This document shows, piece after piece, positions 7,001 through 64,000 of a stretch of 64,000 nt of DNA. Numbering within the stretch: position 1 is the stretch's first letter; each line of letters opens with the position of its first letter. The notes under the pieces are model-generated. The model worked only from the letters and a program-made list of their open reading frames with translations. It was not told the origin of the DNA and made no database searches. A program made the translations under genes and the position numbers. The stretch lies in NCBI RefSeq assembly GCF_032118995.1, contig NC_092649.1, positions 20,893,832-20,957,831 of the forward strand, in the 5' to 3' direction. This DNA is from Asterias amurensis (taxonomy: Eukaryota; Echinodermata; Asteroidea; Forcipulatida; Asteriidae).

Positions 7001-10000
7001 CAGGCCCACAATATTAGCGATCACGCGGGCCCTAACTCGCAATCTCAATACACACACGTTGCAACGTGTGCAGGCTGTGTCTAAGTAAACTTCTTAATTA
7101 GTTACTGTTAGTCGACTTGGTGAGATAAATTATGTCAGTAAGTCGACTTACCATTTTATCTAAGACGACTTGGTGAGATAAATTATGTTGTTAAGTCAAC
7201 TGATTGTTTTGAATAAGTCGACTTAGCAAAATAATATGTCGGTAAGTAACTGATTCCACGAAATAAGTCGTTTTGATGAGATAACGTGTGTCGGTAATTC
7301 GATATGTTGGATGGCACTCCTGGAGCTCCGTAGGTGACCTTTTGCCAGTCAAAACTTATCAATGGAAAATCACGCCATGTGCACGCACATGGCACTGGCG
7401 TATAATGTGTAAACAAGTCTGAACAAGCTATAGTCGCGAGGGGTATGCTGCGTTAGGCATAAACACTTAGGCCAAGAAAATATACAAATGCTTACTTTTG
7501 AACCGTTAGACAAGGTCAAAATGGGATTATGTCTGCGAGGCGTTTACGGAGTTTTGAATGATGATTCCGATGATGTATTGATTGTAAGAATCCCCTGTGT
7601 AGATCAGAAGTTATGATTTTATATTAATAAAAAACTTTGATTGACCATCATTCAAGAACGGTTGACGTCATCATGACGTAACTTAAACGGTTTCCTCTCC
7701 TAATAAATACCTATCTATGTGTGAAGTTTCAATTTCATACGCGTTTGGGAAAGGTGCTTTTGTTAGCGGACAAGGTATTTTTGAGTTGGCCGAACAAACT
7801 TAAAAATACACTAGATATAGTGTTTGTAAAAACAAACACTAGGTGTTCGGCTATTGTTGGGTCAGTGTTTGAATAAATGAAACAAGTATTGTAAGTATCC
7901 CGTCAAATTTCAAAGAAATCAAAACCAAACAGTTTTCTCGATGTGTAATAATTTTATGGAAAAAGCATCAAAAAGTGTACATTTCAACCTAAAAGCCTTT
8001 AAATAATGGCTTTTCAAAGCATTTTACAGGCTCATCCAGTTTAAAAAGGTCAAAAAGTCAAGAGAAGGTCACCAACATACCCATTTTTGTGGAATACGTG
8101 AGGCCCTTTCATATATTGAATAGATTGTCAAAATAGCTTTTGTGTTTGAGGAAACGTGAACTGATGAATAATGGCGACTGGAGAAGAGACTAACTAACCG
8201 AAAGGGAAATGTTTGTTGAAAACACCTTGAAAACAGACTACATACGTAAAGCCCTTTCATATGATGTATAGATTGTCAAAATAACTTTTGTGGTTGAGGA
8301 TTTAGGAGCTTAATGCATAATGACGACTGGAGAAGAGACTAACTAGCCGGAAAGGAAATGTATGTTGAAAACGCCTTGAAAACAGACTACAAAGGAGGCT
8401 ATTTATAGGAGAAGAAAAAAATAAATACAAAAATAAACAGTCCAACTTTCGGTCGCCACGTGGTCTCCCATCCAAATACTGACTGGGCCCGATTTTGCTT
8501 AACCTCAGTGACCGGACGAGAACCGGTGTTATCAACGCAGTATGGTCGTAGATAAAACTAATCAATTACTTTTGAAGAAAACTGACATTATGTTGAGAAT
8601 GCCTCGAACGCAGACTAAAACGATCAAAACGCGGTGCAGAGAGTGACTATGCTCCTCAATGCACCGCATACTTACACGTGGTGACCGCAATGCACCGCAT
8701 GCTTACACGTGGTGACAAAGTACGTGTACATGTAATCGTAAAATCTTTACGCGCAATCAATGGGGGAATTTTGTAGTTCTTTATACATGAATTTTGATAT
8801 TTTCAACCTCTCTTTTGAGCCGGAAGACAAAATAAAAATGGGGTAATGTCTGTAAGGTGTTTACGGAGTTTTAATTGCCCTTTCCGATGATGTATGGATT
8901 GTAAAAATCCCTCATGTAGATCTAAAGTTATGATTTTTTTAAATAATAAACTTTGAATGAGTGTATCTCGTCAACTGATGACGTCATCGTGACGTAACAA
9001 CTTTCGCATCATCGACTGGTTATTGTCTACTTGTGTGCAAAGTTTCAACTTAATGCAAGCTTCGCAACTATGCTATTTCTTGCGGACAATCGACAGCGAG
9101 AAGAATAAGAAAAACCAAAAAAAAAAGAAAAAAAAAAAAAAAAAAACGAACAAAATCAATGAGTTGTTCGGGCTGTTGCCCGAACACCTAAAAAAAAAAA
9201 CGAACAAAATCAAAGAGTTGTTCGGGCTGTTGCCCGAACACCTAAAAAAAAACCGAACAAAATCAAAGAGTTGTTCGGGCTGTTGCCCGAACACCTAAAA
9301 AAAAACGAATAAAATCAATGAGTTGTTCGGGCTGTTGCCCGAACACCTAAAAAACCGAACAAAAATAAGAGGTGTTCCGGGCTGTTGGCCCGAACACCTA
9401 ATAATTGTAAAATGTTCTGGTACCTTCTATGGCAAACCGCTGAGAAGTGGGAACCTTTGCGGATTGGAATTTTACCGTTCGCAAAGTGAGGAATTGGGAA
9501 CCTTTGCAGATTGGCTGCAAAGTGTATTTATAATTGGAATTGGTATACTTCTTTATGAGTGGATATCACTGGATGGAATTAAAATAAAGGGAAATCCCTT
9601 ATTATTTTGCGTTTCACCACTGAATTCAGAGTACGGAATAAATTAACTCCTGGCAGAGTTCACTACAACAACAAATCCTTGTGTTTGTACTGTATATTTA
9701 TCACCGTAAATGCATTATTTAAAGGCATGGACACTATTGGTAACTGTCAAAGACCAGTCTTCTCACTTGGAGTATCTCAACATATGAATTAAATAAAAAA
9801 CCTGTGAAAATTTGAGCTCGAAAATTCAAATCTAAAGGTTTATTTTTAAATCTAAAATTAGACTGGTCCCTAATAACAATCATTTGGATTAACTATACAT
9901 AGGATTCGAACTGCTTTTAGCTACCAGGCAATCTCTGTGTTCTAGTTGGTTAGACACTGCTCTAGAAATTCAAAGGCCGTGGGTTCGAATCCCACCCGAG

Positions 10001-12320: not shown

Positions 12321-12685
12321 ACCAAATTTGGTCTCAGGAGTCATCACAGCAAAAACCTGTATTTCTGAAAGTTTGTATAAATTATACCCATCCCAGCGCC
12401 TTGAGTAAGTTGTTTGGTAAATACGTGCGCCATAAGACGTTGATATTATTATGATGGAGTGTATCATTATCAAGGTACCGTCTGATTCTCCTTATATGTT
12501 GTAACTGGAAATAAGTCATTTGACATAAAGCTTAGAAAATTGCTTGCTCGTTGTCATTATAATATGAATCAAACTTCATTCCTTAATTGTGGACCTAAAG
12601 CAATAGGGTTAATGCGTGTATGGTTATTCGAACACTGAAACTCATCCACAGTCGTTACTTCCATCCAGCTACCAGCGCCTCTTTA

Positions 12686-12870
12686 GCCCTTTTCACACTA
12701 CAGGTATTTCCCGGGATATTCCCGGGAAATGTTAGTCGATCTTTTCACACTACAAAAAAATTCCCGGGAAATAACATTTTCCCGGGAAATAATTTACCCA
12801 GTTAAGGGGTAGGGTTAAAGGAGTTATACCCCGGGGACAAAAAGTTTTTCCCGGGAAAAGCAGCTAGTGA
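12686..12870. repeat. Left terminal region, CCCGGG palindromes
   Basis: Two CTTTTCACACTAC starts (12688 and 12739) are each followed by paired TTTCCCGGGAAAT palindromes, then GGGGTAGGGTTAAAGG. The complement of 28957-29123 has the same order and spacing, with more divergence than the inner arms. Confidence 0.8.
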
Positions 12871-13312
12871 GAACGAAAGCGGGTTTAACTTACCCCACCT
12901 TTTGCTTCCACTGTGTTGAGACGTCATTAATCTCGAAAGGTCACAGACGTCAAAAATAGCGCGCCAAATAACTCGCGTGGTAACAATAGCCCTTTTTTGT
13001 TTTCTCCTTCTGAAAGTGTTTATACGTTTAGGTACGAAAATAAAAGTGAATTACATCTGTAATTTACAAATAAATATATTAATTAAAAAAATTGACCACG
13101 TGAATGGAATAGGAATACAATAATTAATAGTTGGCGTGAACAAGCTTCCTTCTCGTACACACGCCATGTGTGTATGGTATTTCTTATTTACATGTACTTG
13201 GCCGTTGGTGGACTTTTGTTGTCCAGAGTCAGATTTGAGTTCTTGGATCGACATTGCTGTCTACCACCTGACAGTAAATATTTTACTTCAATTTGTTGCT
13301 CAATTTCTTACG

Positions 13313-13483
13313 ATGAGTAGAAATGACCGATGGAGTGATGATAACACTTTGAAACTAGTTGCCTACAAGAAACGGGAAAGTTTTCTCAAAATTGGCTGAC
13401 TGCCTGCGTGAAGCTGGATATGAACGGACCCCTGCCCATTGCAGATACAAACTGAAAACCTTGGGAAAAAAGACTATACGTCG
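13313..13483 (+). pseudogene. Myb/SANT-like DNA-binding exon, one-base frameshift
   Basis: From the ATG at 13313 the frame reads SRNDRWSDDNTLKLVAYKK and ESFLKI, then a surplus G near 13394 shifts the frame. Past it the reading continues ADCLREAGYERTPAHCRY and KLKTLG to a GT donor at 13484. The W-x(n)-GYERTPxHCRxKLKxL pattern is that of the Myb/SANT-like domains that PIF/Harbinger elements encode beside their transposase. Its place next to a TTA-flanked terminal repeat fits that reading. No further exon of this gene is evident, and the shift makes it non-coding as sequenced. The right arm lacks this segment. Confidence 0.6.
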
Positions 13484-13852
13484 GTAGGATAATAGTTTTG
13501 TTTTTCAAAGCCTAAAAATTTTCTATTGCATAAGTGTTCTCCTGCAAAAACATTTTGTTATAAATTTAAAAGTCTTTATGAAGCCATGAAAAATGCTAGC
13601 CATAGGGTTAAAGCCTATTCAGTGTTCTTTCTTTGCACGATGGGAAAACAGCACTGTTGATGTTAGAAGGGAAGATTGCTTCTTTTCCTTTCTACTGCTA
13701 TTGTCAGATTGTGCAAAATCGACCATGCGGTATTTTTTCTATAAAACCTTTAATTACCTTGGCCCTTTAACATCATGGACATTATTATGCAAACTTCGAA
13801 AATTATGGGGCGCCGTTTGTCCATTAATTGTTTGACACTTTTAAGGCTTGTT

Positions 13853-15083
13853 TTTACCATGGTTTACAGCAATTAGATGTAAACCATAGAAACTGTTGGC
13901 AAATCCTGTTATGGTTAACATACCAGTAAAGTATTTGTTGTGTCTAAGTTTATGGTTTACAAACCATGAACATACAAAAAACATTTACAAATCGTGGTTC
14001 ATAAACCAAGAAAATTTACGCATCTTAAAAACATGTTTTATAAACCATAAAAAATAAAACATCAAATTCATGGTTTACAAATCATGGTTTACAAACCATG
14101 AAAATTGAGACATCTAAAAACATGGTTTATAAACCATGAAAATTTAAGATAAAAATCGTGGTTTACAAATCATGGTTTATAAACCATAACAAATGAACCA
14201 TAAAATCATGGTTTGTGACAATGGTTTATAAACCATGAAAATCGAGACTTCTTAAAAAACATGGTTTATAAACCATGAAAATTGAGACTTCTTAAAAAAC
14301 ATGGTTTATACACCATGAAAATTTACACATCTCAAAAACGTTGTTTGTAAACCATAAAAAAAAGTGCACTTACAAATCATGGTTTACAAACCATACAAAT
14401 GTGCACTCACAAATCATGGTTTACAAACCATAAAAAATGTGCACTACAGAAATCATGGTTTATAAACCATAAAAACGTGCACTCAAAAATCATGGTTTAT
14501 AAACCATAAAAACGTGCACTCACAAATCATGGTTTACAAACCATAAAAAATGTGCACTCAAAAATCATGGTTTATAAACCATAAAAACGTGCACTCACAA
14601 ATCATGGTTTACAAACCATAAAAAATGTGCACTCAGAAATCATGGTTTATAAACCATAAAAAATGTGCACTCAAAAATCATGGTTTATAAACCATAAAAA
14701 CGTGCACTCACAAATCATGGTGTACAAACCATAAAAAAAACTCCAATCACAAACCATGGTTTATAAACCATGAAAACGTGCACTCAGAAATCATGGTTTA
14801 CAAACCATAAAAACGTGCACTCACAAATCATGGTTTACAAACCATAAAAAAAACTCCACTCACAAATCATGGTTTACAAACCATAAAAGCGTGCACTCAC
14901 AAATCATGGTTTACAAACCATAAAAACGTGCACTCACAAATCATGGTTTACAAACCATAAAAAAACTTCCACTCACAAATCATGGTTTACAAACCATTAA
15001 AAAAATGTGCACTCACACAAATCATGGTTTACAAACCATAAAAAAGTTGTGTACACAAATCATGGTTTACAAACCATAAAATT
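13853..15083. repeat. Left array a: CATGGTTTATAAACCATG palindromes
   Basis: About 30 units built on an 18-base palindrome (CATGGTTTATAAACCATG or the TTTACAAACC variant) joined by spacers such as AAAACGTGCACTCACAAAT. The regular part has a 37-38 bp period; the left 450 bases are more diverged. The mirror array is at 27779-28890. Confidence 0.9.
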
Positions 15084-15189
15084 CTATTACGATCGTCTCT
15101 AAAACCTCCTTCCCAACTCTGATCGGTTCCCATTTCACCCCATTTCCCCCCATGCCACGTGCGAGCCAGCAATATGCAATTCACCTATG

Positions 15190-15745
15190 GAGGACGGAAA
15201 GTGGACATCTGCTTTTCTGGTATCAGAATTGCAGAAAAGCAGATTTAATGGGTTTTTGTAGCAATTTTTTCTCCTTTTCTACTTTTCTGCTACCTGAAAA
15301 GCAGATTGATCGTTTTTTGAAAAGCATTTTCTACTTTTCTACTTTTCTGTTACCAGAAGAGCAGGTTTTACTTTTTCTCCATATGTTGGCGGACGAAAAG
15401 TGGCCTTTTGCTTTTCTAATATCGGAATTGTAGAAAAGCAGATTTAACGTTTCGTGAAAATGCAATTTTCTATTTCTCTGCTTTTCTGCCCAGGAAAAGA
15501 GGATTTTACTCTGGTGGACGAAAAGTGGCCGTTTGCTTTTCTGCTATCAGAATAGTAGAAAAGCAGATTTAACGTTTTGTAAAAATGCAATTTTCTATTT
15601 CTCTGCTTTTCCGCCACCTAAAAAGCAGATTTTATTCTGGCGGCCGAAAAGTGGCCATCTCCTTTTCTTCTTTCAGATACCGGAAAATCATATTTTACCT
15701 AGGTGGCCGAAAAGTGGCCATTTGCTTTTTCGCTTTCAAAGGACG
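15190..15745. repeat. Left array b: CTGCTTTTCTG..CAGAAAAGCAG palindromes
   Basis: About six units of roughly 100 bases. Each has a stem of the type TGCTTTTCTG / CAGAAAAGCA and the phrase GACGAAAAGTGGCC. The open frames across it repeat the same short peptide and are not protein-like. Mirror array: 26995-27520. Confidence 0.85.
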
Positions 15746-15859
15746 GCCCGTGAACGTGAACCATAAAACACGCACAATGCACGGGCGCCGAACTGTGTTT
15801 GTGTTGGGGAACCAATCACGTCAGTCAGTCAGTCGATACTGGAAGAAGTATATGGAACG

Positions 15860-16700
15860 CCAAAGAGGCATTTAATCATCGGTGATGGTATTTGCAACCG
15901 GAAATTTGTCATCGGTGGTGGTCCTATGCGATCGGTGATCAATTTTAGCGAGCGGTGATAAAACACGATCGGTGGTCCATTTTAGCGATCGGTCATGCAT
16001 ATTCACGATCGGTGATGGCTTTTTGCAATCGGTCAACTTTAGTGATCGGTGGTGGCTTTTTGCAATCGGTAAACTTTAGTGATCGGTGGTGGCTTTTTGC
16101 AATCGGTCAACTTTAGGGATCGGTGGTGGCTTTTTGCAATCGGTCAACTTTAGGGATCGGTGGTGGCTTTTTGCAATCGGTCAACTTTAGAGATCGGTGG
16201 TGGCTTTTTTGCAATCGGTCAACTTTAGAGATCGGTGGTGGCTTTTTGCAATCGGTCAACTTTAGTGATCGGTGGTGGCTTTTTGCAATCGGTAAACTTT
16301 AGTGATCGGTGGTGGCTTTTTGCAATCGGTCAACTTTAGTGATCGGTGGTGGCTTTTTGCAATCGGTCAACTTTAGGGATCGGTGGTGGCTTTTTGCAAT
16401 CGGTCAACTTTAGAGATCGGTGGTGGCTTTTTGCAATCGGTCAACTTTAGAGATCGGTGGTGGCTTTTTGCAATCGGTCAACTTTAGGGATCGGTGGTGG
16501 CTTTTTGCAATCGGTCAACTTTAGAGATCGGTGGTGGCTTTTTGCAATCGGTCAACTTTTGCAACCGGTGATGGAATTTTGCAATCGGTCAACTTTAGTG
16601 ATCGGTGGTGGCTTTTTGCAATCGGTCAACTTCAGGGATCGGTGGTGGCTTTTTGCAATCGGTCAACGTTTGCAGCCGGTGATGGAATTTTGGGATATCC
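15860..16700. repeat. Left array c: 37-bp GATCGGTGGTGGCTTTTTGC repeats
   Basis: The regular part (from about 16035) holds some 17 units of 37 bases: GATCGGTGGTGGCTTTTTGC followed by AATCGGTCAACTTTAG plus one variable base (T, G or A). The left part is irregular. Mirror array: 25590-26740. Confidence 0.92.
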
Positions 16701-16740
16701 CAATTTTGCGTCCGGTCGGTGCAGGCCTACTTCAAAACCT

Positions 16741-17567
16741 ATGATTGTGTAGATTGTTGATATTAATTGTTGTTATTTTCTAGTTCACACCACCGTGGAG
16801 GAATAAATTACACTCACCAGCGGGTTGACTGACTTGCCAAACATTTTTAGAAGAGTACCATTTTATACCCAGATAACATACATACATTGGGCAATCAGTT
16901 ATTCCAAATTATTACATTATTGCAATCAAGATTTATTAATATCTACAATTTTTGGGGTATTTTATAGCAAAAAAAAATCTCAACAAATTACATTACATTT
17001 GTAATTACATTTTTTAATTGTTTCGACAATCTTATGACATCCTGTGCCACAGCTTTGACACCCTGCCTTGAAAATTGCATATTATGACCAATGTCGGTTC
17101 AATGCCGGCCCAATGGTGGCCGTTACCAAATCAATATTGGCACAAAAAAGTTGTTTTATACCATTATTTGCCAAAACGGTGTGCCACTTCGAAACCAGTA
17201 TTGGCCCAGAAAAGGTTTTCTATACCATTTTGTCAAATGGCGTGGCGCTAAAAAAAAAAGTATTGGCCCAGAAAAGATTGTCTATGGTGCAGCTACAAAA
17301 CCAGTGTTGGCCTAATAGAGGTTTTCTACCATTTTGCCAAAATGGTGTGCCGCCAACAAACCAGTAGACAGATGACAGAAAGTAAAACTTTCATTATCAG
17401 ACGAAAATTCAACCAGCATTTTAACTCGTAAGTTTTTATTAATAAAATAAAAATGCAAAAAGTATATCAAATATATTAAATTTAAATGAAATTACTTTGC
17501 AATAAAAAAGTTCATTACAATAAAGTGTAGTTGTCCATGATAAACAAAAAACATAAGAAAATGAAAA
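16741..17567. repeat. Left arm unique spacer and array d (CCAATATTGG / CCATTTTGCCAAAATGG)
   Basis: 16741-17060 is AT-rich single-copy sequence nearly identical in complement to 25230-25552. 17063-17365 holds four or five units with GGCCCAA or TTGGCAC next to CCATTTTGCCAAAATGGTGT palindromes. The mirror match ends near 17567 (ATAAACAAAAAACATAAG), which is the inner edge of the arm. Confidence 0.85.
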
Positions 17568-17599
17568 AACAGCAGCAATGAATAAATCAAATTAAAAAT

Positions 17600-17925
17600 G
17601 CTATGTAAAAACCGCTGCTTCGGCACCACCGCCGCCCACGACGACGGCCCCGTCGACGACACCAGCTTGTGGATGGAATGTTATGGCGGATGGGGTACCT
17701 CCATCGACATTTACGGTTCCACCAACGGCAGCGACGGTGCATGGGGCAGTGATGCCGCCGACAACAATTGGAGTCTTTCATAATACACCAATATTTGTAA
17801 GTTCCGTTAGCGCGTCGCTTGCTGGGATAGATAGCGTGCCACTGCATAGCGTCTGTGACGATCTTGGGGCCGCCGTGCCCTTAGGCCATTTTTTTTTTAT
17901 TACTTGGATTACGGATTTGTAAGCT
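17600..17925. other. GC-rich open stretch at the left edge of the core, unassigned
   Basis: 17610-17770 is markedly GC-richer than its surroundings and is open on both strands. On plus it gives a Pro/Thr/Ala-rich peptide, on minus a Gly/Val-rich one (GGITAPCTVAAVGGTVNV). Compositional bias alone could give either. It may be an exon of the composite element; no start, partner exon or family was found. Confidence 0.25.
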
Positions 17926-19099
17926 ACAAAAAACGGGCGGGGGCGGAAAAAAAAAAAAAAAAAAGGGGGATTACGGAATTTCGAGCCCAGAAAACGGGCG
18001 GGGGGAAAAAAAAAAAAAAAAAGGAAAAAAAAAGAACAAAATGCACGCGGGCGGCTTCTAAAACACGTACATATATACACAATTTATGTAGATAAAAGCA
18101 ACCACTCACTGAAAGAATGTCGCCAGTGTTTTAGGCCAAACAAAATGTTCGGTTTCTGGTTACTGACCGGCCCTTACTTTTACACCGCGACCCTAAATTA
18201 TTCACATTTTCGGCTTGAAAAAAATTTATTCATATTTTTTTTTAAACCGTGTCGAACAAAAAGTCAGACTTTTACCAAATTAACAAATGTTAGAACAAAA
18301 TTGAAATAAAGACAAATTTACCGATATCTCCGTGATTTAAGGCCCATGATTTATTACTAATCCACGGACATACACCGGTTCCTAGCTCACGAGTGAACGT
18401 TGAGCGCATTCTAAAGATTTGCAAAATGGGCAGATTGCGCCGGTTTTCCCGAGCTACAATACTAACAAAGCACAAATCTGCAGATTGCGCACCTTTTATG
18501 CTGGATCGCCATTCATCTGCCAATTAAGCTGAGCGCACACACGACACGCTGATGCTCTGCCCAAATTCGCACACACAGACCATTTGTTGATGCATCAATT
18601 GATTGCATGAGTTTGGGTCGTGAGCGGTCGATGCTCTCGTGGTTGTTACTAAATGGCCAAACTGTATGCACTTGGGCAAATAGTATAGTCTATAAACGGA
18701 CTCACACTTTTGTACGTGAATGCATACCATTGGTCTGGTTTCCATCATACATCGGCCGCGATTTTATTTTCTTCGTTGACACTGACTCACGCCGCGGTTT
18801 AATACGTGTACATGTGCATGTACATTGTACAGTACATGTATGTGTACATGTAGGGGTCTCGTTGTAAATTCCAGAGGAAAAAATCGCTAGTAAAAACATG
18901 TACACGATGGTGTTTTGTACATGTACGCGATCGGTGGCACTGTTGTATGAAAGTGTTGTGTATTTATTTATTTATTTTTTTTTTTTTCCCCTACAAAATT
19001 AGATTTTTCGGGCGGGGAATTTTTGAATTTTTTTCAGAAACACGATTTTTTCGGGCGGCGATTCCCGTAATCCAAGTTATTAAAAAAAAATGGCCTTAG
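17881..19099. mobile_element. 1.2 kb inverted-repeat element inserted in the core
   Basis: TAGGCCATTTTTTTTT plus ACTTGGATTACGG at the left pairs with CCGTAATCCAAGTTATTA plus AAATGGCCTTA at the right. The interior has G-rich A-tract repeats (ACGGGCGGGGG, 17930-18030), an AGGCCAAACAAAATGTTCGG piece at 18133 related to the ends of the element at 44529, and GTACATGT-rich sequence near 18810-18930. No convincing gene. Confidence 0.65.
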
Positions 19100-19199
19100 C
19101 GTTGCAAGAAAAAATTTGGAAGGGCGAGTTTGTGGAGTTAACCTTTAAACAAAATTTGCCTCCCATATTGACCTAGCTCTACTTCCAGGTCAACCGGAA

Positions 19200-19500
19200 G
19201 TGGGACAATATCCCAAGAACTTCACAACCTATGTTCAAACCTTTTTTCAGTTATAGCCTAACAAACAATACAGTATCGGGCCAATGGTGGCATGTACCGG
19301 CGTCGAGTTTCGATACGGTGCCGTTAATTATGATGATGATATTGAGCCAGAATTGGGCCAGTGCTGGCCTTCTTCCGGTCAAGCGTCATGTCCTTGCTAG
19401 TAAAGTGCCCACACTGGGCCAATGTCGGTTTTATAGAGGCAAACTATTTTAGTTAGGACGGAGGTTTGCCCGTCTTGGCGAATATTGGTTTTGTGCGGCA
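19200..19500. repeat. Diverged array-d motifs in the core
   Basis: GGGCCAATGGTGG, GGGCCAGTGCTGG and GGGCCAATGTCGG occur at about 60-75 bp spacing, like array d of the arms but without the CCATTTTG palindromes. Confidence 0.45.
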
Positions 19501-19921
19501 CATCGTTTCGGCAAAATGATGAACCTTTAAAGGCCGTGAAAAATGATAACTTTGAGGGACGGAAACACATATACTTTATAAAACAAGCCCTACTGATTCC
19601 AAATAAATTATTACTTTACCATTATCTGTGTATTTGACCTTGAAAAAGAAGCGACAACCCTAGCACTCGCATGACCCCCTCTGCCCCCATAACGTAAAAG
19701 TAGGACATTGAGATAATGATATGCACGTGACCCCAAAAACGTCATAAAGGAGATCGAGTCACGTGACGCGGAAGTACACTAGGAGCTTCAACGTGTGTGT
19801 GTATGCTTTGTTTTCGCCGTAGCGATGCGAGCTTCACAATTTTATCCTCTGGTTGTATCCCAGTTTAGTATCATTTAATCTTCGATTTGTGTATCTAAAG
19901 TTCAGTGCCGACACTATCAAA

Positions 19922-20393
19922 ATGCCCAAATCGTGTGTTGTAGGCGGTTGCACACGTAATATACTGAAAAATCCCGAAGTATTTTGGTTGTTGTTTCCCC
20001 AAGATAGTGCACTACCAGCGAACATGAGTTCGTTTCGTCAACAACACACGTTCCGACTTCACACTAGATGTAGGTAGTCATCTTTTGTCTGCTCGGCTCA
20101 CTTCACCGATGATTGTATTGACGAAACAGTTAAGAAGAAGCGAAGTCTTGGCTTGCCATTTCGGTTCAGACTTAAAGTTGGGTATGTCCCAAGCATCAAG
20201 GACCAACAGTATCGGTCATGCATCAACGTCCGACACCGAGTACTTCGACGGGAATTCCTTCGACGTCCGCCGATGTGCAGACTCAGTCGGATGAGCCCGG
20301 CCCTAGCACAAGCACCGCAGAGAAGACATGGAGTACAGATCCTCGTAAGCGCTCTGGGGGAGCATACCTCAAAAGGGAAAGAGCAAGGGTATG
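19922..20393 (+). pseudogene. THAP-domain exon broken by frameshifts
   Basis: A C2CH zinc-finger THAP domain is recognisable in pieces. MPKSCVVGGCTRN from the ATG at 19922 gives the first two cysteines, with FWLLFPQDSAL after it. In another frame VRFVNNTRSDFTLDVG follows, preceded by TGA exactly where the invariant tryptophan belongs (TGG to TGA). In a third frame comes FVCSAHFTDDCID (the C and H ligands) and then LKVGYVPSIKD, the THAP closing motif (AVPSI in most members). A Ser/Thr/Pro-rich linker (TPSTSTGIPSTSADV) continues from about 20218 in yet another frame to a possible GT donor at 20394. So there are three shifts and one stop in 470 bases. THAP domains bind DNA and are common in transposases and in genes derived from them. 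The exons at 20651-22118 are its likely continuation. Confidence 0.75.
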
Positions 20394-20650
20394 TACAAAC
20401 CACCGATTTCGTTTGTCCAATTATTCATAATCATGGTCATTTGGGGAAAGTTTCAATGCGGTTGTAAATTTAACAGTAATTAATACAAAAATTTATCTGA
20501 AAATGTTTTCTATTTTTTTTTTAAGTCAATGCCATGCCATGGACTTCATTCAGCTTGAAGTAATTGAATTTTAAAACTGTTCTCTCATGGACCAGCAGAC
20601 ACTGTATTTGTCACTAAAGGTTTGTACACCTTTTGTTGAATATTTTTCAG

Positions 20651-22031
20651 GGTCGGCTTCTGCCAAGAAAGTTGCAGCCATTCTGGACAGCACGTGGACA
20701 AGAAAGGATGTGAAAATGTTGTCGCCATCCATGGAAGGCATCCACTCGGTTATTAACCAGTACGCGCCTGAGATGTTTTCATTTTCGTATGAGGGCATGT
20801 TATGCAGGTGAGCAAATTTGGTCTACATACTAGGTGTAACCATATACTTTAGAGGGTGGTTGCGGGGGGGGGGGGTGTTGAGGTGCACTGCAGATCTCCC
20901 AAGGCTATCTGTAGTGTATGCCTTAGAAGCTGTGGGATGGGGAATTGACTAGAAAGAATAACTACGGGCCTGACCCCCCCCCCCCCCCCCCCCCTAACTA
21001 ATTTATGGGACCTGCCCTTGATTTTTGCAATTTTTCAAAGAGTAGATCATAATTGGGTGAAACTTTTAGGTTGGATGATTAAGGTGTAAAAACAAAATGT
21101 ACATGTACAGTGCATTAGTATTTTGTGCATTCCACTAGCTTTCATTTAAAGGTTCGGCCAAGGTTTTGGCAGTACATACTGCAACACCATGCATTTTATC
21201 ATACAAGTACATCCTTGTTTATTTCAGAATATACCTTGCTGCGCTTCATTTCAACGAGAACACCAACAGGGCACAGGCCATGGACAGGGAGGGCAATCCA
21301 GCATTCAGCATCTGCTATCCAAGGGCCAAGCAGACCACGGGGGGATATACTGTCAGGAAGGTGCTCATAAAGGCCACTCACAGTAAGTGCATGGTTGTGT
21401 GCAAGTACATACATATGTTGGCACAAGAGGTGTTCTTGTCGTGATTAGTAATTTCTTTGCAAATAAACTTCAACTGATCTAAGTAATTTTTACTTTTTAT
21501 TTGGGGCACAGTACAAAGACTAAATTTCTGTAAGATACAGTTGATGTTCAAGTCTCCTTTTTTTACAGTTTATTTCAAATGAACGACTTCTTTGTTTTGG
21601 GGGCACCCCCTTATTTTTGTGTATAAAATTTTCCTTGTTTCACAATTTGCGCCTAGTTTTTCACCCTTCACATTCCTCTAGCAATATTTTGCACGCATCA
21701 AAGTTAACCAATTGATTAGGCAAATCCACATGAAGTTTAATGTGCACATTGTGGGTTGTGTCCTTATAATTGATTTTATTACATTATAGATTTCAGCAAG
21801 AGGATCATGGAAAAGGTTCTGTTACTCTGCGCAGCTGGGGCAGACACCAGAGCCAAGTACCCGGAGCTGAAGGCAAATCCTGGATATCTAACAGCAAAGG
21901 TAACTCGCCCTGACAAAACACAGGCTGTGAAAGAATTTGTGTCAAGGTTTGGTAAAGCGGTGGAGCCTGTAGGAAGACCAGAGGGGACTGAAGGTGTGGT
22001 TGTTCCAGCAAGTAAGGCAACAAAGAAGTAA
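20651..22031 (+). CDS. THAP-associated protein of unknown function, three exons with intact joins
   Basis: Exons 20651-20807, 21228-21382 and 21790-22031 join in frame across GT..AG introns. The first gives SASAKKVAAILDSTWTRKDV and YAPEMFSFSYEGMLCR. The second gives IYLAALHFNENTNRAQA and GGYTVRKVLIKATH. The third gives FSKRIMEKVLLLCAAG and a Lys-rich end at TAA 22029-22031. I recall L.ALHFNEN..R.QA and GG(Y).V(R)KV as typical of many marine-invertebrate predicted proteins that also carry THAP or appear in repeats; I know no function. The frame stays open for 28 codons beyond the TAA and ends in a basic RKKRKK tail (stop 22116-22118), so this stop looks like a recent nonsense change. Convergent with the P2X7-C-like gene 650 bases on. 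The upstream link to the THAP exon is unresolved because the donor and acceptor phases do not fit. Confidence 0.65.
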
Positions 22032-22676
22032 AAGAAGAAGAGCAAGCATGCTGACAAAAGGCATACTGAGGGCCAACAACAGGGAGAACCTTCATCCAGA
22101 AAGAAACGCAAGAAGTAAACGCCAAGGTGGGGGTGACGACACAACAGAGCACAATCCTTTGATATTCATTATGCATTCATTTCAGCATGCATTTATTGTT
22201 ACTTAGTTTGCACACTAGAATACTATTCGACTGAACTCAACCAATAAAACTAGCCATGGCTACCACTACATTTTTAAATAAAAATGCAACAACATAGTTT
22301 TTAAATTTGACATCGTGGTGAGCTTGAATTTTAACAAACACATGTACTTGTGCCGTATAATTGTACATTTTTTTTATTGTAAAGTACAAATTCTGTTTTA
22401 TTTATCCTACTCATCCATGAGTGCATCACAAAAATGAATTTGACATGGCATTCCCTCAAATATATTTAGTCCAAAACTTTGAATGTAAAATATTTTGTGT
22501 AAAAAAAAAAAAAAAAAAAATGCAAAGGCCTCTTTTGTAAACTTTACAAAAACGCTTGACCGTTCAAACTCATTTTTCAAAGACTATCATCATATTTACA
22601 TTGTAAAGTGTATATTTACTCCTAAACCATGTAAAAGTGTTACTGATATCCAGTTATGTGTTACTATATTGTAAAT

Positions 22677-24124
22677 CTACATGTCATCAAGGTCAGGAAA
22701 TCTAAACCCTTCATAGTTGCCTCCTTCATCGGGGAAAGTCGTTCTGGTTATCCCCATTATGCATGCTGGGAGGGGCACTCTGTTGCGTCTTCCAAGGTAA
22801 CCATAACACCACCTGATCACCTGCCGATAAGACACATGTCTGTACTTTCTGTGAAATAAAAAATAATACCGTTCTGTTTTACAATCAACAAACTGTAAAT
22901 CATTTGTCCATTTGTTACGTTGAATTGACCAATGTTCTAGCCAGTATCAGTGTTACCAGGATAAGTGGGATTGACGAAATGGGCTCAAACAAGGAATATT
23001 GGGCTTATCAAGAGAGTCGCCTTTACTTTGGGGGTGGGAAAAGTGTCCTGATACATGTTCATGTATGTCACGTTTCTCATAAAATAGATTATCTGAATAT
23101 AATAACCAGGTTGTGTGCTTCTATTTTGGTTCAAAAATCTTACAGAAAAAAAAGTTGAAATTTAAAAACATTGAAAATTAACTCTTACCGTGGAAGGTCA
23201 CCTTCAACAGCTCTAGCCCCATACTGTTGTCGGTACGCATAGTACGCTGTCTCTAGTGTTCCGGGGTTCAGACATGTAGCCGAATACCAAGGATGGTCTG
23301 TAAAACAACTGAAACCCTCAGTGTCGACTCCAGTATGAACGATTTTCTCCTGTATGGCTGCAATCTCTTTACAGCAAATGCAGTTGTGAACGAACTCCAT
23401 CACCACACATTTACCACAGGAACACCTTCAATTCAAAAAGCAAGACAATTAATAAGTCAGAAATTTTTTAGAGAACTGTGGCATGGAATTTAACTCAACA
23501 TTCATGTACACAACTGAATTTCACTTGGTTGACATTATGACAAATTAGACACTAACAGTTACAGAAAACTACTCACAAACAAAGCTGTCTTTGCGTTGTA
23601 TGATGTATGATTGTGTAGATATAGACGAGCGAGTATAAAGGCCTATGATTTTATGAGCCAAATGACCAGGTATACACACACGGGTACGTGTTTTGCCCTC
23701 ATCAATATCAACAAAAGCCTACATACACAGGCTATGTAAAATCAGTGAACTATACTATGTCAATGATTCAGAAATTAAAATTACCAGTCGGTATTGTTCA
23801 ATCGCTCGTTGTTGGCAGCTTGGTCATTCCCATCTTGTTCTTCATCGGGGTCGGCGTCATCGGCAGCAGCAGCGTCACCTTGCTGTTGGCGTGGTCTTGC
23901 CAGTGTGGCTCGAATCTATATGGTTCAGCCCCACGAACCACCTCCTCATCCTCATCGTCTGGCTCAACGTCATCGCTGTCTCCCGATCCCCCTGAGATAC
24001 TTTCAGATCCTTCACTGAAACCATCAGAATCTACACTGATTTCTTCCCAAAATTCGTCACCGGAGTTTTCAGAGTCTGACATGTTTACTTCGTCGAGGAA
24101 AGAATCGGCGGACAATACACGCAC
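22677..24124 (-). CDS. P2X7 C-terminal (ballast) domain protein, three exons, frameshift in exon 1
   Basis: Exon 1 (23785-24124) starts at ATG 24124 with a Ser/Asp/Glu-rich region and the motif AEPYRFEP, and ends NERLNNTD plus TG before GTAATT. Exon 2 (23189-23425) reads CSCGKC, CICCKEI, CFTDHPWY and TAYYAYRQQYG. Exon 3 (22677-22848) reads KYRHVSYRQVIRWCYGYLG, RNRVPLPAC and a TAG stop. The cysteines, the histidine and the YR(Q)..RW..G.LGR..R..LPxC pattern are those of the intracellular C-terminal domain of P2X7 receptors, which binds zinc and guanine nucleotides; no channel part is present here. Stand-alone copies are abundant in invertebrate genomes. PYRFEP and NNERLNNTDW are in different frames (a TAG precedes the second in its frame), so one base is gained or lost around 23860-23920. 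A sequencing error would restore it; otherwise it is a pseudogene. Confidence 0.75.
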
Positions 24125-24399
24125 ATTACATGTGGGGCTTGCGTAGCGTGCGTGAGTTGTATGGGTACCAGACCTAGTCAGTCTCCTTTATGACGTCACA
24201 GCCATTGCGCAACAACCAATCGTGACCTCTGCATTTACAGAATCGCGACGCGCGGGCTTTTTAAAAAATCCTTGTTTTAATCTTTTTACAATTTCGAGAA
24301 ATTATCTTTGTATACTTATATATTGTGTTTGATACATCAGCAAATAGATTTTGAAAGTGGATTGAATGGAAACTTCTCATTTTCCACGCACTTTATGGC

Positions 24400-24650
24400 C
24401 AATGCTGGTTTTGTAGCGGTGCACCATTTTGGGAAAGTGGTAGAAAACCTGCAATGGTCCAATACTGGTTTTGTGGCACACCATTTGGGAAAACAGGCAG
24501 ATAACCTCTCATTGAGCCAATACTGGTTTTGTAGCTGCACACCATTCTTGTCAAAATGGTGTCATATAGAAAACCTTTTCGGGGCCAATTATGCCAATAC
24601 TGGCTTTGGCAAAACGGTAAAGAAATATGTTCTAATTACTAAACCGACTT
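24400..24650. repeat. Extra array-d units on the core side of the right arm
   Basis: Three or four units of about 75 bases with GCCAATACTGGTTTTGTAGC, CACACCATT and AGAAAACCT, in the orientation of the right-arm array d. They have no close mirror at 17.6 kb. Confidence 0.6.
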
Positions 24651-24724
24651 GATATTTAAAAAGGAATTAGCCCATGCAAGTTATTGAAGCTGGGGTGGAT
24701 TTCACAAAGAGTTAAGACTAGTCT

Positions 24725-25560
24725 TTTCATTTTTTTATGTTTTTTGTTTATCATGGACAACTACACTTTATTGTAATGAACTTTTTTATTGCAAAGTAAT
24801 TTCATTTAAATTTAATATATTTTATATACTTTTTGCATTTTTATTTTATTAATAAAAACTTACGAGTTAAAATGCTGGTTGAATTTTCGTCTGATAATGA
24901 AAGTTTTACTTTCTGTCATCTGTCTACTGGTTTGTTGGCGGCACACCATTTTGGCAAAATGGTAGAAAACCTCTATTGGGCCAACACTGGTTTTGTAGCT
25001 GCACCATAGACAATCTTTTCTGGGCCAATACTTTTTTTTTTAGCGCCACGCCATTTTGACAAAATGGTATAGAAAACCTTTTCTGGGCCAATACTGGTTT
25101 CGAAGTGGCACACCGTTTTGGCAAATAATGGTATAAAACAACTTTTTTGTGCCAATACTGATTTGGTAACGGCCACCATTGGGCCGGCATTGAACCGACA
25201 TTGGTCATAATATGCAATTTTCAAGGCAGGGTGTCAAAGCTGTGGCACAGGATGTCTTAAGATTGTCGAAACAATTAAAAAATGACAAAGTAATGTAATT
25301 TGTTGAGATTTTTTTTGCTATAAAATACCCCAAAATTTGTAGTTATTAATAAATCTTGATTGCAATAATGTAATAATTTGGAATAACTGATTGCCCAATG
25401 TATGTATGTTATCTGGGTATAAAATGGTACTCTTCTAAAAATGTTTGGCAAGTCAGTCAACCCGCTGATGAGTGTAATTTATTCCTCCACGGTGGTGTGA
25501 ACTAGAAAATAACAACAATTAATATCAACAATCTACACAATCATAGGTTTTGAAGTAGGC
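24725..25560. repeat. Right arm: array d and unique spacer (mirror of 16741-17567)
   Basis: The complement follows the left arm almost base for base, including the TAAAAAAAAAG run, GTTTTCTACCATTTTGCC and the ACCACCGTGGAGGAATAAAT segment. Differences are a few substitutions and one small indel (ATTTGTAATTACATT left, CTTTGTCATT right). Confidence 0.88.
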
Positions 25561-25589
25561 CTGCACCAACCGGACGCAAAATTGGGATA

Positions 25590-26740
25590 TCCCAAAATTC
25601 CATCACCGGTTGCAAACGTTGACCGATTGCAAAAAGCCACCACCGATCCCTAAAGTTGACTGATTGCAAAAAGCCACCACCGATCCCTGAAGTTGACCGA
25701 TTGCAAAAATCCACCACCGATCACTAAAGTTGACTGATTGCAAAAAACCACCACCGATCCCTGAGGTTGACCGATTGCAAAAAGCCACCACCGATCACTA
25801 AAGTTGACCGATTGCAAAATTCCATCACCGGTTGCAAAAGTTGACCGATTGCAAAAAGCCACCACCGATCTCTAAAGTTGACCGATTGCAAAAAGCCACC
25901 ACCGATCCCTAAAGTTGACCGATTGCAAAAAGCCACCACCGATCACTAAAGTTGACGATTGCAAAAAGCCACCACCGATCCCTAAAGTTGACTGATTGCA
26001 AAAAGCCGACACCGATCCCTGAAGTTGACCGATTGCAAAAATCCACCACCGATCCCTAAAGTTGACTGATTGCAAAAAGCCACCACCGATCCCTGAGGTT
26101 GACCGATTGCAAAAAGCCACCACCGATCACTAAAGTTGACCGATTGCAAAATTCCATCACCGGTTGCAAAAGTTGACCGATTGCAAAAAGCCACCACCGA
26201 TCCCTGAAGTTGACCGATTGCAAAAATCCACCACCGATCACTAAAGTTGACTGATTGCAAAAAGCCACCACCGATCCCTGAGGTTGACCGATTGCAAAAA
26301 TCCACCACCGATCACTAAAGTTGACCGGTTGCAAAATTCCATCACCGGTTGCAAAAGTTGACCGATTGCAAAAAGCCACCACCGATCTCTAAAGTTGACC
26401 GATTGCAAAAAGCCACCACCGATCCCTAAAGTTGACCGATTGCAAAAAGCCACCACCGATCACTAAAGTTGACCGATTGCAAAAAGCCACCACCGATCAC
26501 TAAAGTTTACCGATTGCAAAAAGCCACCACCGATCACTAAAGTTGACCGATTGCAAAAAGCCATCACCGATCGTGAATATGCATGGCTAAACCATCACCG
26601 ATCATGAATATGCATGACCGATCGCTAAAATGGACCACCGATCGTGTTTTATCACCGCTTGCTAAAATTGATCACCGATCGCATAGGACCACCACCGATG
26701 ACAAATTTGATCACCGGTTGCAAATACCATCACCGATGAT
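25590..26740. repeat. Right array c: 37-bp repeats (mirror of 15860-16700)
   Basis: About 25 units of CCACCACCGATCNCTAAAG plus TTGACCGATTGCAAAAAG, including variant units with CCATCACCGGTTGCAAAAG. It is longer than the left array, so copy number has changed since the arms formed. Confidence 0.92.
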
Positions 26741-26994
26741 TAAATGCCTCTTTGGCGTTCCATAGAAGTAGGCCTACTTTTGTGATGACCGCGCATGTGG
26801 CCGCGGCATCTCAAAGGAAATACTCTGGCGGAGGTTTCACGGCTACCATCCAAAATAGACTTCAGGGATTCTTTCTTTACAAAAAAACACGGTCAGTCAT
26901 ACATTTTCCCGTGTGGTTTATTTCAAATGAAGCGGGTGACACGTTTGTTCAATAAACTGAAACATTCACGGGCGGTCCTTTGAAAAAGCAAATG

Positions 26995-27520
26995 GCCACT
27001 TTTCGGCCACCTTCTACCTAGGTAAAATATGAGTTTTCCGGTATCTGAAAGGAAAAAAGGAAATGGCCACTTTTCGGCCGCCCGAGTAAAACCTGCTTTT
27101 CAGGTGGCGGAAAAGCAGAGAAATAGAAAATTGCATTTTTAAAAAACGTTAAATCTGCTTTTCTACTATTCTGATAGCAGAAAAGCAAATGGCCACTTTT
27201 CGTCCACCAGAGTAAAATCCTCTTTTCATGTGGCAGAAAAGCAGAGAAATAGAAAATTGCATTTTTACAAAACGTTAAATCTGCTTTTCTACTATTCTGG
27301 TAGCAGACATGCAAAAGGCCACTTTTCGTCCGTCAGCATTAGAAGAAAAATTAAAACCTGCTTTTCTGGTAACAGAAAGTAGAAACGTAGAAAATGCAAT
27401 TTCACAAAACGTTCAATTTGCTTTTCTGGTAGCAGAAAAGCAGAAAAGTTCATATAAAACAACCATAAAATCTGCTTTTCTGATACCAGAAAAGCAGATG
27501 GCCACTTTTCGTCCTCCATA
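26995..27520. repeat. Right array b (mirror of 15190-15745)
   Basis: CTGCTTTTCTACTATTCTG and TAGCAGAAAAGCAAATGGCC units in opposite orientation to the left array. Confidence 0.85.
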
Positions 27521-27778
27521 TTCACCGTGTGTGTCAATGCTGTGATCAATGCACCGTGTGTGTAATGCTGATGCAATAATAGCTCTTTGAATGCACCGTG
27601 TACAGTATGCCATGTGGCCACCATGCCGCAGTGCTCGGGACCGGATGTCAGGGTGGGTGGTGAGCGGTATGGCTCTTGAGGCCAGCGTAGTCTGGTTCCT
27701 AGACGACTCTTGTTAACATGGGGGAAATGGGAACCGATCAGAATTGGGAAGGAGGTTTATTTGAGACGATCGTATAGG

Positions 27779-28890
27779 TTTTCATGGTTTATAAACCATG
27801 ATTTGTGTATGCACCTTTTTTATGGTTTGTAAACCATGATTTGTGAGTGCACGTTTTTATGGTTTATAAACCATGATTTGTGAGTGCACACTTTTATGGT
27901 TTGTAAACCATGATTTGTGAGTGCACATTTTTTTATGGTTTGTAAACAATGATTTCTGAGTGCAGGTTTTCATGGTTTATAAACCATGATTTCTGAGTGC
28001 ACATTTTTTATGGTTTGTAAACCATGGTTTGTGAGTGGAGTTTTTTATGGTTTGTAAACCATGATTTGTGAGTGCACGTTTTTATGGTTTGTAAACCATG
28101 ATTTGTGAGTGCACGTTTTTATGGTTTATAAACCATGATTTGTGAGTGGAGTTTTTTTATGGTTTGTAAACCATGATTTGTGAGTGCACGTTTTTATGGT
28201 TTGTAAACCATGATTTCTGAGTGCACGTTTTCATGGTTTATAAACCATGGTTTGTGAGTGGAGTTTTTTTATGGTTTGTAAACCATGATTTGTGAGTGCA
28301 CGTTTTTATGGTTTATAAACCATGATTTCTGTAGTGCACATTTTTTATGGTTTGTAAACCAAGATTTGTGAGTGGGGTTTATTTGTAAACCATGATTTGT
28401 AAGTGCACTTTTTTTTATGGTTTACAAACAACGTTTTTGAGATGTGTAAATTTTCATGGTTTATAAACCATGTTTTTTAAGAAGTCTCGATTTTCATGGT
28501 TTATAAACCATTGTCACAAACCATGATTTTATGGTTCATTTGTTATGGTTTATAAACCATGATTTGTAAACCACGATTTTTATTCTTCAATTTTCATGGT
28601 TTATAAACCATGTTTTTTAGATGTCTCAATTTTCATGGTTTATAAACCATGATTTGTAAACCATGAATTTGATGCTTCAGTTTTTATGGTTTATTAACCA
28701 TGTTTCTTAAGATGCGTAAATTTTCTTGGTTTATGAACCACGATTTGCAAATGTTTTTTTGTCTGTCATGGTTTGTAAACCATAAACTTATACACAACAA
28801 ATACTTTACTGGTATGTAAACCATAACAGGATTTGCCAGCAGTTTCTATGGTTTACATCTAATTGCTGTAAACCATGGTAAAAACAAGCC
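27779..28890. repeat. Right array a (mirror of 13853-15083)
   Basis: CATGGTTTATAAACCATG units with spacers such as ATTTGTGAGTGCACGTTTT, the complement of the left spacer. The last part (28790-28890) mirrors 13853-13950 including TAGATGTAAACCATAGAAAC in complement. Confidence 0.9.
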
Positions 28891-28956
28891 TTAAAAATGC
28901 CAAACAATTAATTGACAGACGGCGCCCCATAGAAAATGCCATTCAGAAAATTACTA

Positions 28957-29123
28957 GGCCTTACCCCAGGGTTGAATCCCTTAACCCTGCCCCTGAGCAG
29001 GGTTGATTATTTCCTGGGAAAACGTCATTTCCCGGGAAATTCCCGGGAGCATTTTTGTAGTGTGAACAGATCAACCAAAAGTTCCCGGGAATTTCCCGGG
29101 AAATAACTATAGTGTGAACAGGC
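28957..29123. repeat. Inner right terminal-like region
   Basis: In complement: GCCTGTTCACACTATAG, paired CCCGGG palindromes, a second TGTTCACACTAC, more CCCGGG, and GGGCAGGGTTAAGGG, in the order of 12686-12840. It is the mirror of the left end, yet 668 bases of other sequence lie between it and the outer right end. Confidence 0.75.
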
Positions 29124-29139
29124 AACAATTTAGATGAAT

Positions 29140-29640
29140 GCCAACACAGAACCTCTGGGTAAAACACGGACACAAAAGTCAATTCAATTACAGTTCTCAA
29201 AAGAAAAAAAAGCTTTCGCAGAGTAGAAAGCTCCCTTTCGCATTTTTTAATAGAAACTTGCTCCCACCAGTGGCCGCTCTTCTTGGTAGACCAGATTGAC
29301 CTTTGACCAATACTTCCAGCAAGTGCCATAAAACCCGTCAATCGCACGACAAATTCCATCCGATTGTTATACCGATGTCTTTAAAACACTGTCACAGAAA
29401 TCGTCTTCTCCTGACATGCCGTCAGCGATGTCTTCCCCGAACTCTCCGCCGTAATCACAGAAATATTGGTATAACCACACGCAAATACACACGTGCGGCC
29501 ATTTTGGGTCGCATGTGGCAAGGATTTTGCAGCCGGCCGTGTGGCATTGTGGGAACGGACCTCCGTCAACAAACATTGGGTACTTCCGCATGGGCTGACC
29601 TGTTTGCCACATTTCCTGGGGTTTGATCTTAAGTGTGAAA
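29140..29640 (-). pseudogene. Possible Harbinger-type transposase N-terminal remnant
   Basis: On minus, about 29285-29250 reads STKKSGHWWEQV, a phrase like the start of the Harbinger transposase core (GHWWE.V before the FR.S...F motif). Upstream sequence (29400-29650) is open with an acidic segment (GEFGEDIADGMSGEDDF). No DDE motif and no in-frame link between the two was found. The position opposite a Myb/SANT exon and next to a TTA-flanked end makes the reading plausible, but the similarity is short. Confidence 0.3.
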
Positions 29641-29791
29641 CGACCGTGCATATTCCTGGGAAAAAGTACTCCCGGGAGTTACCAAATTGGGATAGTGAGA
29701 ACGGTTGCTGGGGTGGCGGTGGGGTTAAAAACTCCCGGGATTTTCACGGGAGTTAATTTCCCGGGAAATGGCTCTGTAGTGTGAAAAGGGC
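29640..29791. repeat. Outer right terminal region
   Basis: In complement it begins GCCCTTTTCACACTACAG, then TTTCCCGGGAAATTAACTCC, CCCGGGAG pairs and GTTCTCACTATCCC. The left end has CTAGTGAGAACG at a comparable distance. Confidence 0.75.
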
Positions 29792-59670: not shown

Positions 59671-59805
59671 ACTGTGCATGATATTTATAGTTATTACTAT
59701 TATTGTTTATTATTACTGTTCATCTCAGTCCAGTTTCTATCCTGGATATAATACAATGTGCCCACTATTTTCTGCAGCAAGAAACTTTCTGCTGGTGGCC
59801 ACCAT

Positions 59806-62841: not shown

Positions 62842-64000
62842 TGAAATGTTGAAAATATGTGTAAGGAGAAAGATAGGGGAAACTTGAGAGAAAGAGATGA
62901 CGAGTTGAATGACAGTTGGCAGGCACTATCTATTGAGGCCATGGAGAGTAAGAGGGAGTTGGTGTTACATACCCCTCCAAGCCCTCTCACCCAGTGGGAA
63001 AGTCCATTCACCCAAAATATGGAATGAGACTGGTGATAGCTATGTCGACAACCCCGACTGGTTCAAGAAACGTGAAGCAGTACAGGATCTTGCAGACAAT
63101 CAGGAAGATCCTAGGAGGGGTGGAAACACCAAGGCAAATGGCCCATACAACCCCGACTGGTTCAAGAAATGCGAAGCAGACGAGTTGTACAGGATCTTGC
63201 ACACAATCTGGAAGATCCTATGAAGGGTGGAAACACTAAGGCAAATGGCCCGTACAACCCCGACTGGTTCAAGAAATGCGAAGCAGACGAGTTGTACAGG
63301 ATCTTGCACACAATCTGGAAGATCCTATGAAGGGTGGAAACACTAAGGCAAATGGCCCGTACAACCCCGACTGGTTCAAGAAACGCGAAGCAGACGAGTT
63401 GTACAGGATCTTGCAGACAATCTGGAAGATCCTATGAAGGGTGGAAACACCAAGGCAAATGGCCCGTACAACCCCGACTGGTTCAAGAAACGCGAAGCAG
63501 ACGAGTTGTACAGGATCTTGCAGACAATCTGGAAGATCCTATGAAGAGTGGAAACACCAAGGCAAATGGCCCATACAACCCCGACTGGTTCAAGAAATGC
63601 GAAGCAGACGAGTTGTACAGGATCTTGCAGACAATCTGGAAGATCCTATGAAGGGTGGAAACACCAAGGCAAATGGCCCGTACAACCCCGACTGGTTCAA
63701 GAAATGCGAAGCAGACGAGTTGTACAGGATCTTGCACACAATCTGGAAGATCCTAGGAGGGGTGGAAAATGGGAAAAAGGTCAATGGCCCGTACCACCAC
63801 TCAAAAGCTTGTGAGTCAATCTTGCCAATTATATACATCTTACATATAGCTCCACCTGTACTTCACATTATGTAGAGCTGGTTGTTACATTTTATTGAAA
63901 TGTCGAAAATATGTACAAGGAGAAAGATAGGGGAAACCTAGGAGAAAGAGATGACGAGTTGAATGACAGTTGGCAGGCTCTATCTATTGAGGCCTAGGAG
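62842..64000. repeat. ~1.05 kb duplicated unit, right copy cut by window end
   Basis: GAAATGT.GAAAATATGT and AAGGAGAAAGATAGGGGAAA, then GATGACGAGTTGAATGACAG and TATCTATTGAGGCC, occur at 62842-62942 and 63896-63996. The second copy runs off the window, so more units may follow. Confidence 0.8.
63056..63765. repeat. 107-bp tandem array, about 6.6 copies
   Basis: GGTGGAAACACCAAGGCAAA recurs at 107-bp steps (63119, 63226, 63333, 63440, 63547, 63654) with a few variable bases. Since 107 is not a multiple of three, each frame cycles through three peptides (e.g. GPYNPDWFKKCEADELYRIL). The longest such frame runs to 63875. Confidence 0.9.

Follow-up and report, generated by a model that had tools for sequence, protein, structure and literature searches.

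Nested insertion of foldback elements as the probable origin of a long mirrored locus in the Asterias amurensis genome

Introduction

PIF/Harbinger DNA transposons typically insert at a TTA target (a 3-bp duplication of the TWA type) and encode a transposase together with a Myb-like protein. A second kind of mobile element, the foldback, is represented by Tetris, which like other foldbacks is non-autonomous, contains tandem repeats inside its long inverted arms and has no known transposase; foldbacks are also mentioned from sea urchins, and Tetris is a case in which transposons have been proposed to seed satellites (PMC4079207; statements on published systems refer here and below to excerpts of the papers cited). 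Galileo, a member of the P superfamily, has long, internally repetitive terminal inverted repeats (TIRs) of variable length (PMC3688188, PMC3573991), and the Kol0 lineage of Kolobok has a TTAA target, RR-type ends, a THAP-bearing transposase and KolX (PMC9587614), from which the C-terminus of P2X7 is described as derived (section 12 of that paper). Here we analyze a 64,000-bp stretch of the genome of the sea star Asterias amurensis (the window; C2:20893832-20957831 of the 23-contig, 491.5-Mb assembly that was also searched), which contains some 17 kb of sequence with mirrored blocks. This palindrome is very probably a nest of DNA transposons, in which three foldback elements (A, B and C) lie one inside the next and are accompanied by a miniature inverted-repeat transposable element (MITE) and a Kolobok.

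Results

Mirrored architecture of the locus

Self-comparison of the window bears out the mirrored blocks described by an earlier sequence-only reading, with blocks A, B, C and D following one another in a single inward order on both sides. Block A is a 37-38-bp array, block B is built of ~125-bp units, block C is a 37-bp array, and block D is 870 bp long. Over ungapped positions, left and right agree at 141/148 bases in the A lead, 947/999 in the A array, 488/528 in B, 110/111 in the C lead, 662/721 in the C array, and 861/871 in D. BLAST identities are lower (87.6% for B, 89.5% for A) because the arrays are gapped and unequal in length. No linker between blocks matched its counterpart on the other side in BLAST-type self-comparison; by eye, some 20 bases along B's inner edge look similar. 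Mirrored blocks with unlike linkers are expected because each nested element brings its own mirrored arrays. Other details of the earlier description changed. The arms measure 3.77 and 4.21 kb rather than 4.4-4.9 kb, and the symmetry begins at 13804 and 28931 rather than at the outermost ends, where only TIR-type sequence is common to the left and right flanks. The satellites had been called palindromic, and inverted repeats do occur in the A and B units, but the C monomer has none of at least 7 bp. Two of the array monomers had no match when compared with viral contigs.

Three foldback elements inside one another

Each mirrored array belongs to an element with its own ends and its own target duplication, as listed here.

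13804..28931: foldback element A, 15,128 bp including its contents, ends TATGGGGCGCCG, TAT..ATA
13798-13803 and 28932-28937: 6-bp duplication of A, GAAAAT, exact and non-palindromic
13804..15083, plus strand: left arm of A, a 148-bp lead and a 37-38-bp array
27778..28931, minus strand: right arm of A
15186..27520: foldback element B within A, ends TATGGAGGACG, TAT..ATA, reverse complement at 27520
15180-15185 and 27521-27526: 6-bp duplication of B, TTCACC, exact and non-palindromic
15186..15731, plus strand: left arm of B, ~125-bp units
26982..27520, minus strand: right arm of B
15851..26764: foldback element C within B, ends TATGGAACGCC, TAT..ATA, first 27 bases identical
15845-15850 and 26765-26770: 6-bp duplication of C, GAAGTA, exact and non-palindromic
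15851..17570, plus strand: left arm of C, with lead, 37-bp array and block D
24721..26764, minus strand: right arm of C, block D cut short at 24721 next to a short MITE

Long inverted arms with tandem repeats, the mark of the foldback class, are found in A, B and C of the window and in A elsewhere, and dispersed copies with target duplications are seen for A. The first 27 bases of A match the genome exactly at 180 places (87 + 93; reversed control, 0 + 0), and the 100 of these that were listed include 34 neighboring inverted pairs of 157 bp to 29.4 kb. Four A copies of 6.46-6.79 kb lie at C2:4046172, C3:9635082, C10:6731227 and C13:6640911. A search with the 187-bp end of A returned 41 matches, 40 of them full-length (the window included) and one partial, with the best 40 scored of 239 candidates. 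The end was followed by lead and array in 20/20 loci (L042-L061, L042 being the window). Both ends of A were present at five of 17 loci examined, and all five of these compact copies have exact 6-bp duplications (CACAAT, TACACT, TACAGC, AAGAGC and GTTTTC). Two other large copies, of 8,301 bp on C11 and 9,297 bp on C1, are flanked by TTTGTA and CATGAG, respectively. Exact 6-bp duplications thus accompany 8/8 copies of A with both flanks read, counting the window; together with the 180 exact end copies, their presence at other loci rules out a one-off palindromic duplication as the origin of A. Among 28 extracted 148-bp ends, 24 lie within 0-3 differences of the consensus (21/25 distinct ends, since three rows repeat the same ends), and the remainder are the window's two ends, L049, at 7 differences, and an L052 end in which the lead is preserved for approximately 26 bases from its start. 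With most ends nearly identical to the consensus, A appears to be young. A Kolobok with giant TTAA-flanked arms had also been considered from the TTAAGG just within both arms and was rejected, as the mirror extends beyond this motif and the duplication is GAAAAT. In L062, a 3,173-bp A element, the middle is filled by a further mirrored repeat (TGTGCGCACACGTATGCAATGTCG...).

The arms might instead belong to one foldback with modular arms that acquired its satellites through duplication and through exchange of sequence from arm to arm, with no nested insertion. The arms of Galileo do lengthen and recombine (PMC3573991), and identities differ from block to block, as this model would allow. We consider it improbable in the extreme on two grounds: B and C have terminal repeats of their own with exact, non-palindromic 6-bp duplications, and empty B sites exist. 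Three separate A elements have the uninterrupted site of B (CAATTCACCGTGTGTG; ...CAATTCACC joined to GTGTGTG): L043, L049 and L062, the last of which shows it in both arms and has L044 and L045 as its two ends. B itself occupies the same base of A in L047 (left arm of the C11 copy) and L048 (left arm of the C1 copy). Nesting therefore replaces arm exchange as our explanation, and the several different satellites noted previously in the arms become the separate arrays of three foldback elements.

B was seen at three loci, always inside A. C was seen solely in the window: its end did not recur among the fetched loci, and no genome search was made for the ends of B or C. The C11 and C1 copies contain a D block 98.7-99.1% identical to that of the window. 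Elsewhere, a cluster of D-like blocks of 83-86% identity, several arranged as close divergent pairs, extends over C10:12.95-14.62 Mb.

The outer element is a landing site

The outermost sequences on either side of A form a separate element of about 2 kb.

12686..13803, plus strand: left part of the outer, putatively Harbinger-type element, TIR GCCCTTTTCACACTACAG, TTA target
28932..29791, minus strand: right part of the same element, with the terminal TIR
~13310-13480: broken Myb/SANT-like remnant of the outer element, Myb_DNA-bind_4 5.6e-6 (a match spanning a frameshift, with its score at the cut-off)

From its TTA target and Myb/SANT-like remnant, we class the outer element as probably Harbinger; no transposase domain was found in it, the Myb-like remnant being the only such trace. 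A stretch in the right outer flank, -SGHWWEQ-, gave no Pfam family; it may resemble Harbinger transposases. A second TIR-like copy, oriented like the terminal TIR, lies at ~28964-29122, and other outer copies also have one.

The exact 18-bp outer inverted repeats with TTA on each side had been reported before and are confirmed here, and they are what favors a single 17-kb transposon bounded by them. TTA on both sides holds for the window and for several of ten outer copies displayed at length, the others lacking it. This interpretation has next to no probability, as the inner ends recur 180 times in the genome and the fetched outer copies are empty. A query of 12680-13280 matched the window and 39 other places at 95-96% identity, among the best 40 scored of 300 candidates. 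A further search gave 41 matches, comprising the window, 39 that end at 13802-13803, and one short partial. In all 19 of these 39 that were fetched as loci (L020-L038), the 13803 side is joined to the 28932 side, with flanks overlapping by exactly 6 bases, and nine of the ten outer copies fetched at length show the junction uninterrupted. Arms and core are thus missing from 19/19 outer copies, and this empty site identifies A as a later arrival inside the outer element. The idea of a Harbinger-derived composite survives in the type of the outer ends, while the outer element is merely where the nest landed. Another A element, L049 (C1:7242645), also sits inside a Harbinger-type copy, at a different position than in the window.

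A broken Kolobok in the core

The core spans 7.15 kb (17571-24720), close to the 7.2 kb given earlier, and the genes ascribed to it are present as profile matches to THAP (PF05485, 1.9e-6) and P2RX7_C (PF20478, 1.6e-10) and as a transposase C-terminus. One protein of the core is 100% identical, across 99% of the query, to a protein of Asterias amurensis. The contents of the core are as follows.

17884..19095: MITE-like insertion, TIR GGCCATTTTTTTT..., TTA on both sides; shared with the C11 sister copy
19531..24392: nested, probably Kol0-type Kolobok, TTAA at left, one target base lost at right
19922..22032, plus strand, approximate bounds: broken transposase gene, THAP exon with an in-frame stop and C-terminal exons
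22680..24082, minus strand, end approximate: KolX/P2X7-C-like gene, frameshifted (relative to protein P0010)

Judged from sequence, the THAP and P2X7-C genes probably belong to a broken Kolobok that inserted later into the core. Once the missing target base is taken into account, its 5'-RR termini read AGGCCGTG / AGTGCGTG, and the core gene shows the likeness of KolX to the P2X7 C-terminus. The transposase gene lacks its catalytic middle, and the copy would be a defective derivative from which no DDD/E transposase can be read. In the middle of the C11 copy, L064 matches 17342-17716, 17743-19140 and 19134-19530 and then 24391-24725; the Kolobok is absent there, the sequence jumping from 19530 to 24391 with TTAA at the empty site. 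On C1, the distance from D to D is 3.2 kb, too short to hold it. A zinc-finger reading of ~17600-17880 gave no Pfam family.

Probable movement of the nest as a unit

The composite of A with B is found at three loci (the window, C1 and C11), and the duplication flanking A is different at each. These three different duplications at three loci argue that the whole nest transposes as a unit. In the sequence of events that we propose, B would have entered A near its middle (TTCACC), and C would have entered B near its middle (GAAGTA); the MITE (TTA) and the Kol0-type Kolobok (TTAA) would have been placed in the middle of C, and a ~2-kb Harbinger-type element (TTA) would have taken in A (GAAAAT). 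A transposase acting in trans may recognize A's end, and perhaps also the arm repeats, so that the whole nest would be excised and then inserted via 6-bp staggered cuts. Central insertions could be tolerated or even favored because the arms remain intact.

By hand arithmetic, B lies at 1382 of ~2787 bases of A (~49.6%), C at 665 of ~1415 bases of B (~47%), and the Kolobok at ~2465 of 4834 bases of C (~51%, MITE removed). Three central insertions suggest a preference or a constraint, a suggestion and not a test, for array lengths have since changed and the region was chosen for being mirrored. That the foldback lineage prefers the middle, or hairpin loop, of foldbacks with the same type of end, with composites that keep moving by their outermost ends and so spread satellites, is an idea that we put forward tentatively and think somewhat doubtful.

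Other repeats in the window

Three further repeats lie outside the nest: an 87-bp tandem repeat of 23.5 copies with long open frames (59795-61837), a 107-bp tandem repeat of 6.4 copies with 97% matches (63080-63768), and a 1-kb direct duplication of 94.8% identity (3801-4829 and 8095-9126).

Discussion

A long palindrome of different satellites very probably arises at this locus because TAT..ATA foldbacks with inverted repeat arms nest centrally. Several observations weigh against this interpretation or narrow its base. At the outer site, two of the nine displayed empty junctions read GAAAAC and not GAAAAT, and L016, one of the ten outer copies, contains ~0.8 kb of different sequence close by. 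The pairing of A ends draws on 100 of 180 places, and the window's own A ends, with 4 and 7 differences from the consensus, are more divergent than the majority. The insertion of C is known from the window alone; in the C1 and C11 copies, which were read in part, a deletion (L047 and L048) starts within B and stops short of C's final ~39 bases, which D then follows. A scan for nested ends, which required TA ends, 6-bp flanks that match exactly and 10 or more of 12 terminal bases alike, found six pairs in the mirrored region, namely A, B and C and three others (14445, 17477 and 17503) whose flanks are self-complementary, as mirror symmetry alone would produce. Shuffled segments gave one match in 2/20 runs, a weak control in that shuffling destroys the mirror. 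The right target of the Kolobok is one base short. Lastly, no transposase was identified for the foldback elements.

As to what mobilizes them, it is plausible, if somewhat short of probable, that the foldbacks are non-autonomous members of IS3EU. The TA..TA ends and 6-bp duplications of A, B and C fit the description of that group (PMC10045372), but no IS3-like DDE transposase domain occurs in the 1.8 kb read of one 6.5-kb A copy, and the gene read there has a Tudor-knot and a weakly RAG1-like end. This gene (C10:6733900-6735700; L067, L068), inside a 6,482-bp copy of A, raises the rather unlikely alternative that the foldbacks are moved by another class of transposase, RAG1-like around the third catalytic acid. 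Its parts, in order a Tudor-knot (4.1e-6), a stretch matching positions 555-602 of the RAG1 profile and a zinc knuckle, would suit such an enzyme, and RAG1 chains head the list of PDB matches; yet the profile score falls below the cut-off (PF12940, E = 0.016), the PDB matches are at E 0.22 or worse, the 1.8 kb that was read did not show the first two catalytic acids, and the gene, seen in one copy of A, may be a passenger.

Nesting puts a simple rule in place of a giant palindromic transposon: centrally nested foldbacks mimic one multi-satellite element. With a nest that moved at three loci and many near-identical copies of A, one genome makes it possible to ask, copy by copy, whether insertion is targeted to the center, how well nested cargo is tolerated and whether transposons seed satellites.

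Nested foldbacks of this kind were described in none of the titles and abstract openings listed in the literature searched, in searches not aimed at foldback nesting itself, and the terms foldback and IS3EU came up together there in a single paper, as a cited title and a table entry. The known systems each match a part of the nest. The TTA target and Myb/SANT-like remnant of the outer element recall PIF/Harbinger, from which it differs in having no detected transposase domain. The core copy resembles Kol0 Koloboks (PMC9587614) in its RR-type ends, KolX and the remnant of a THAP-bearing transposase, with TTAA at its left side and at the empty site, and departs from them in its missing catalytic middle, THAP stop, KolX frameshift and lost target base. 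The foldbacks share TA..TA termini and the usual 6-bp duplications with IS3EU/GingerRoot (PMC10045372), without an IS3-like transposase in the 1.8 kb of the one copy read. With Galileo they share long, repetitive inverted ends, and the THAP-binding sites of Galileo repeats may be counted as a further likeness; Galileo, however, has 7-bp targets, as opposed to 6 bp and TA..TA ends here (PMC3688188, PMC3573991), and the THAP gene of the window belongs to the Kolobok and not to the arms. Tetris is similar in general plan and has arm repeats of ~220 bp (PMC4079207), whereas the locus described here contains three nested foldbacks with unrelated arrays.

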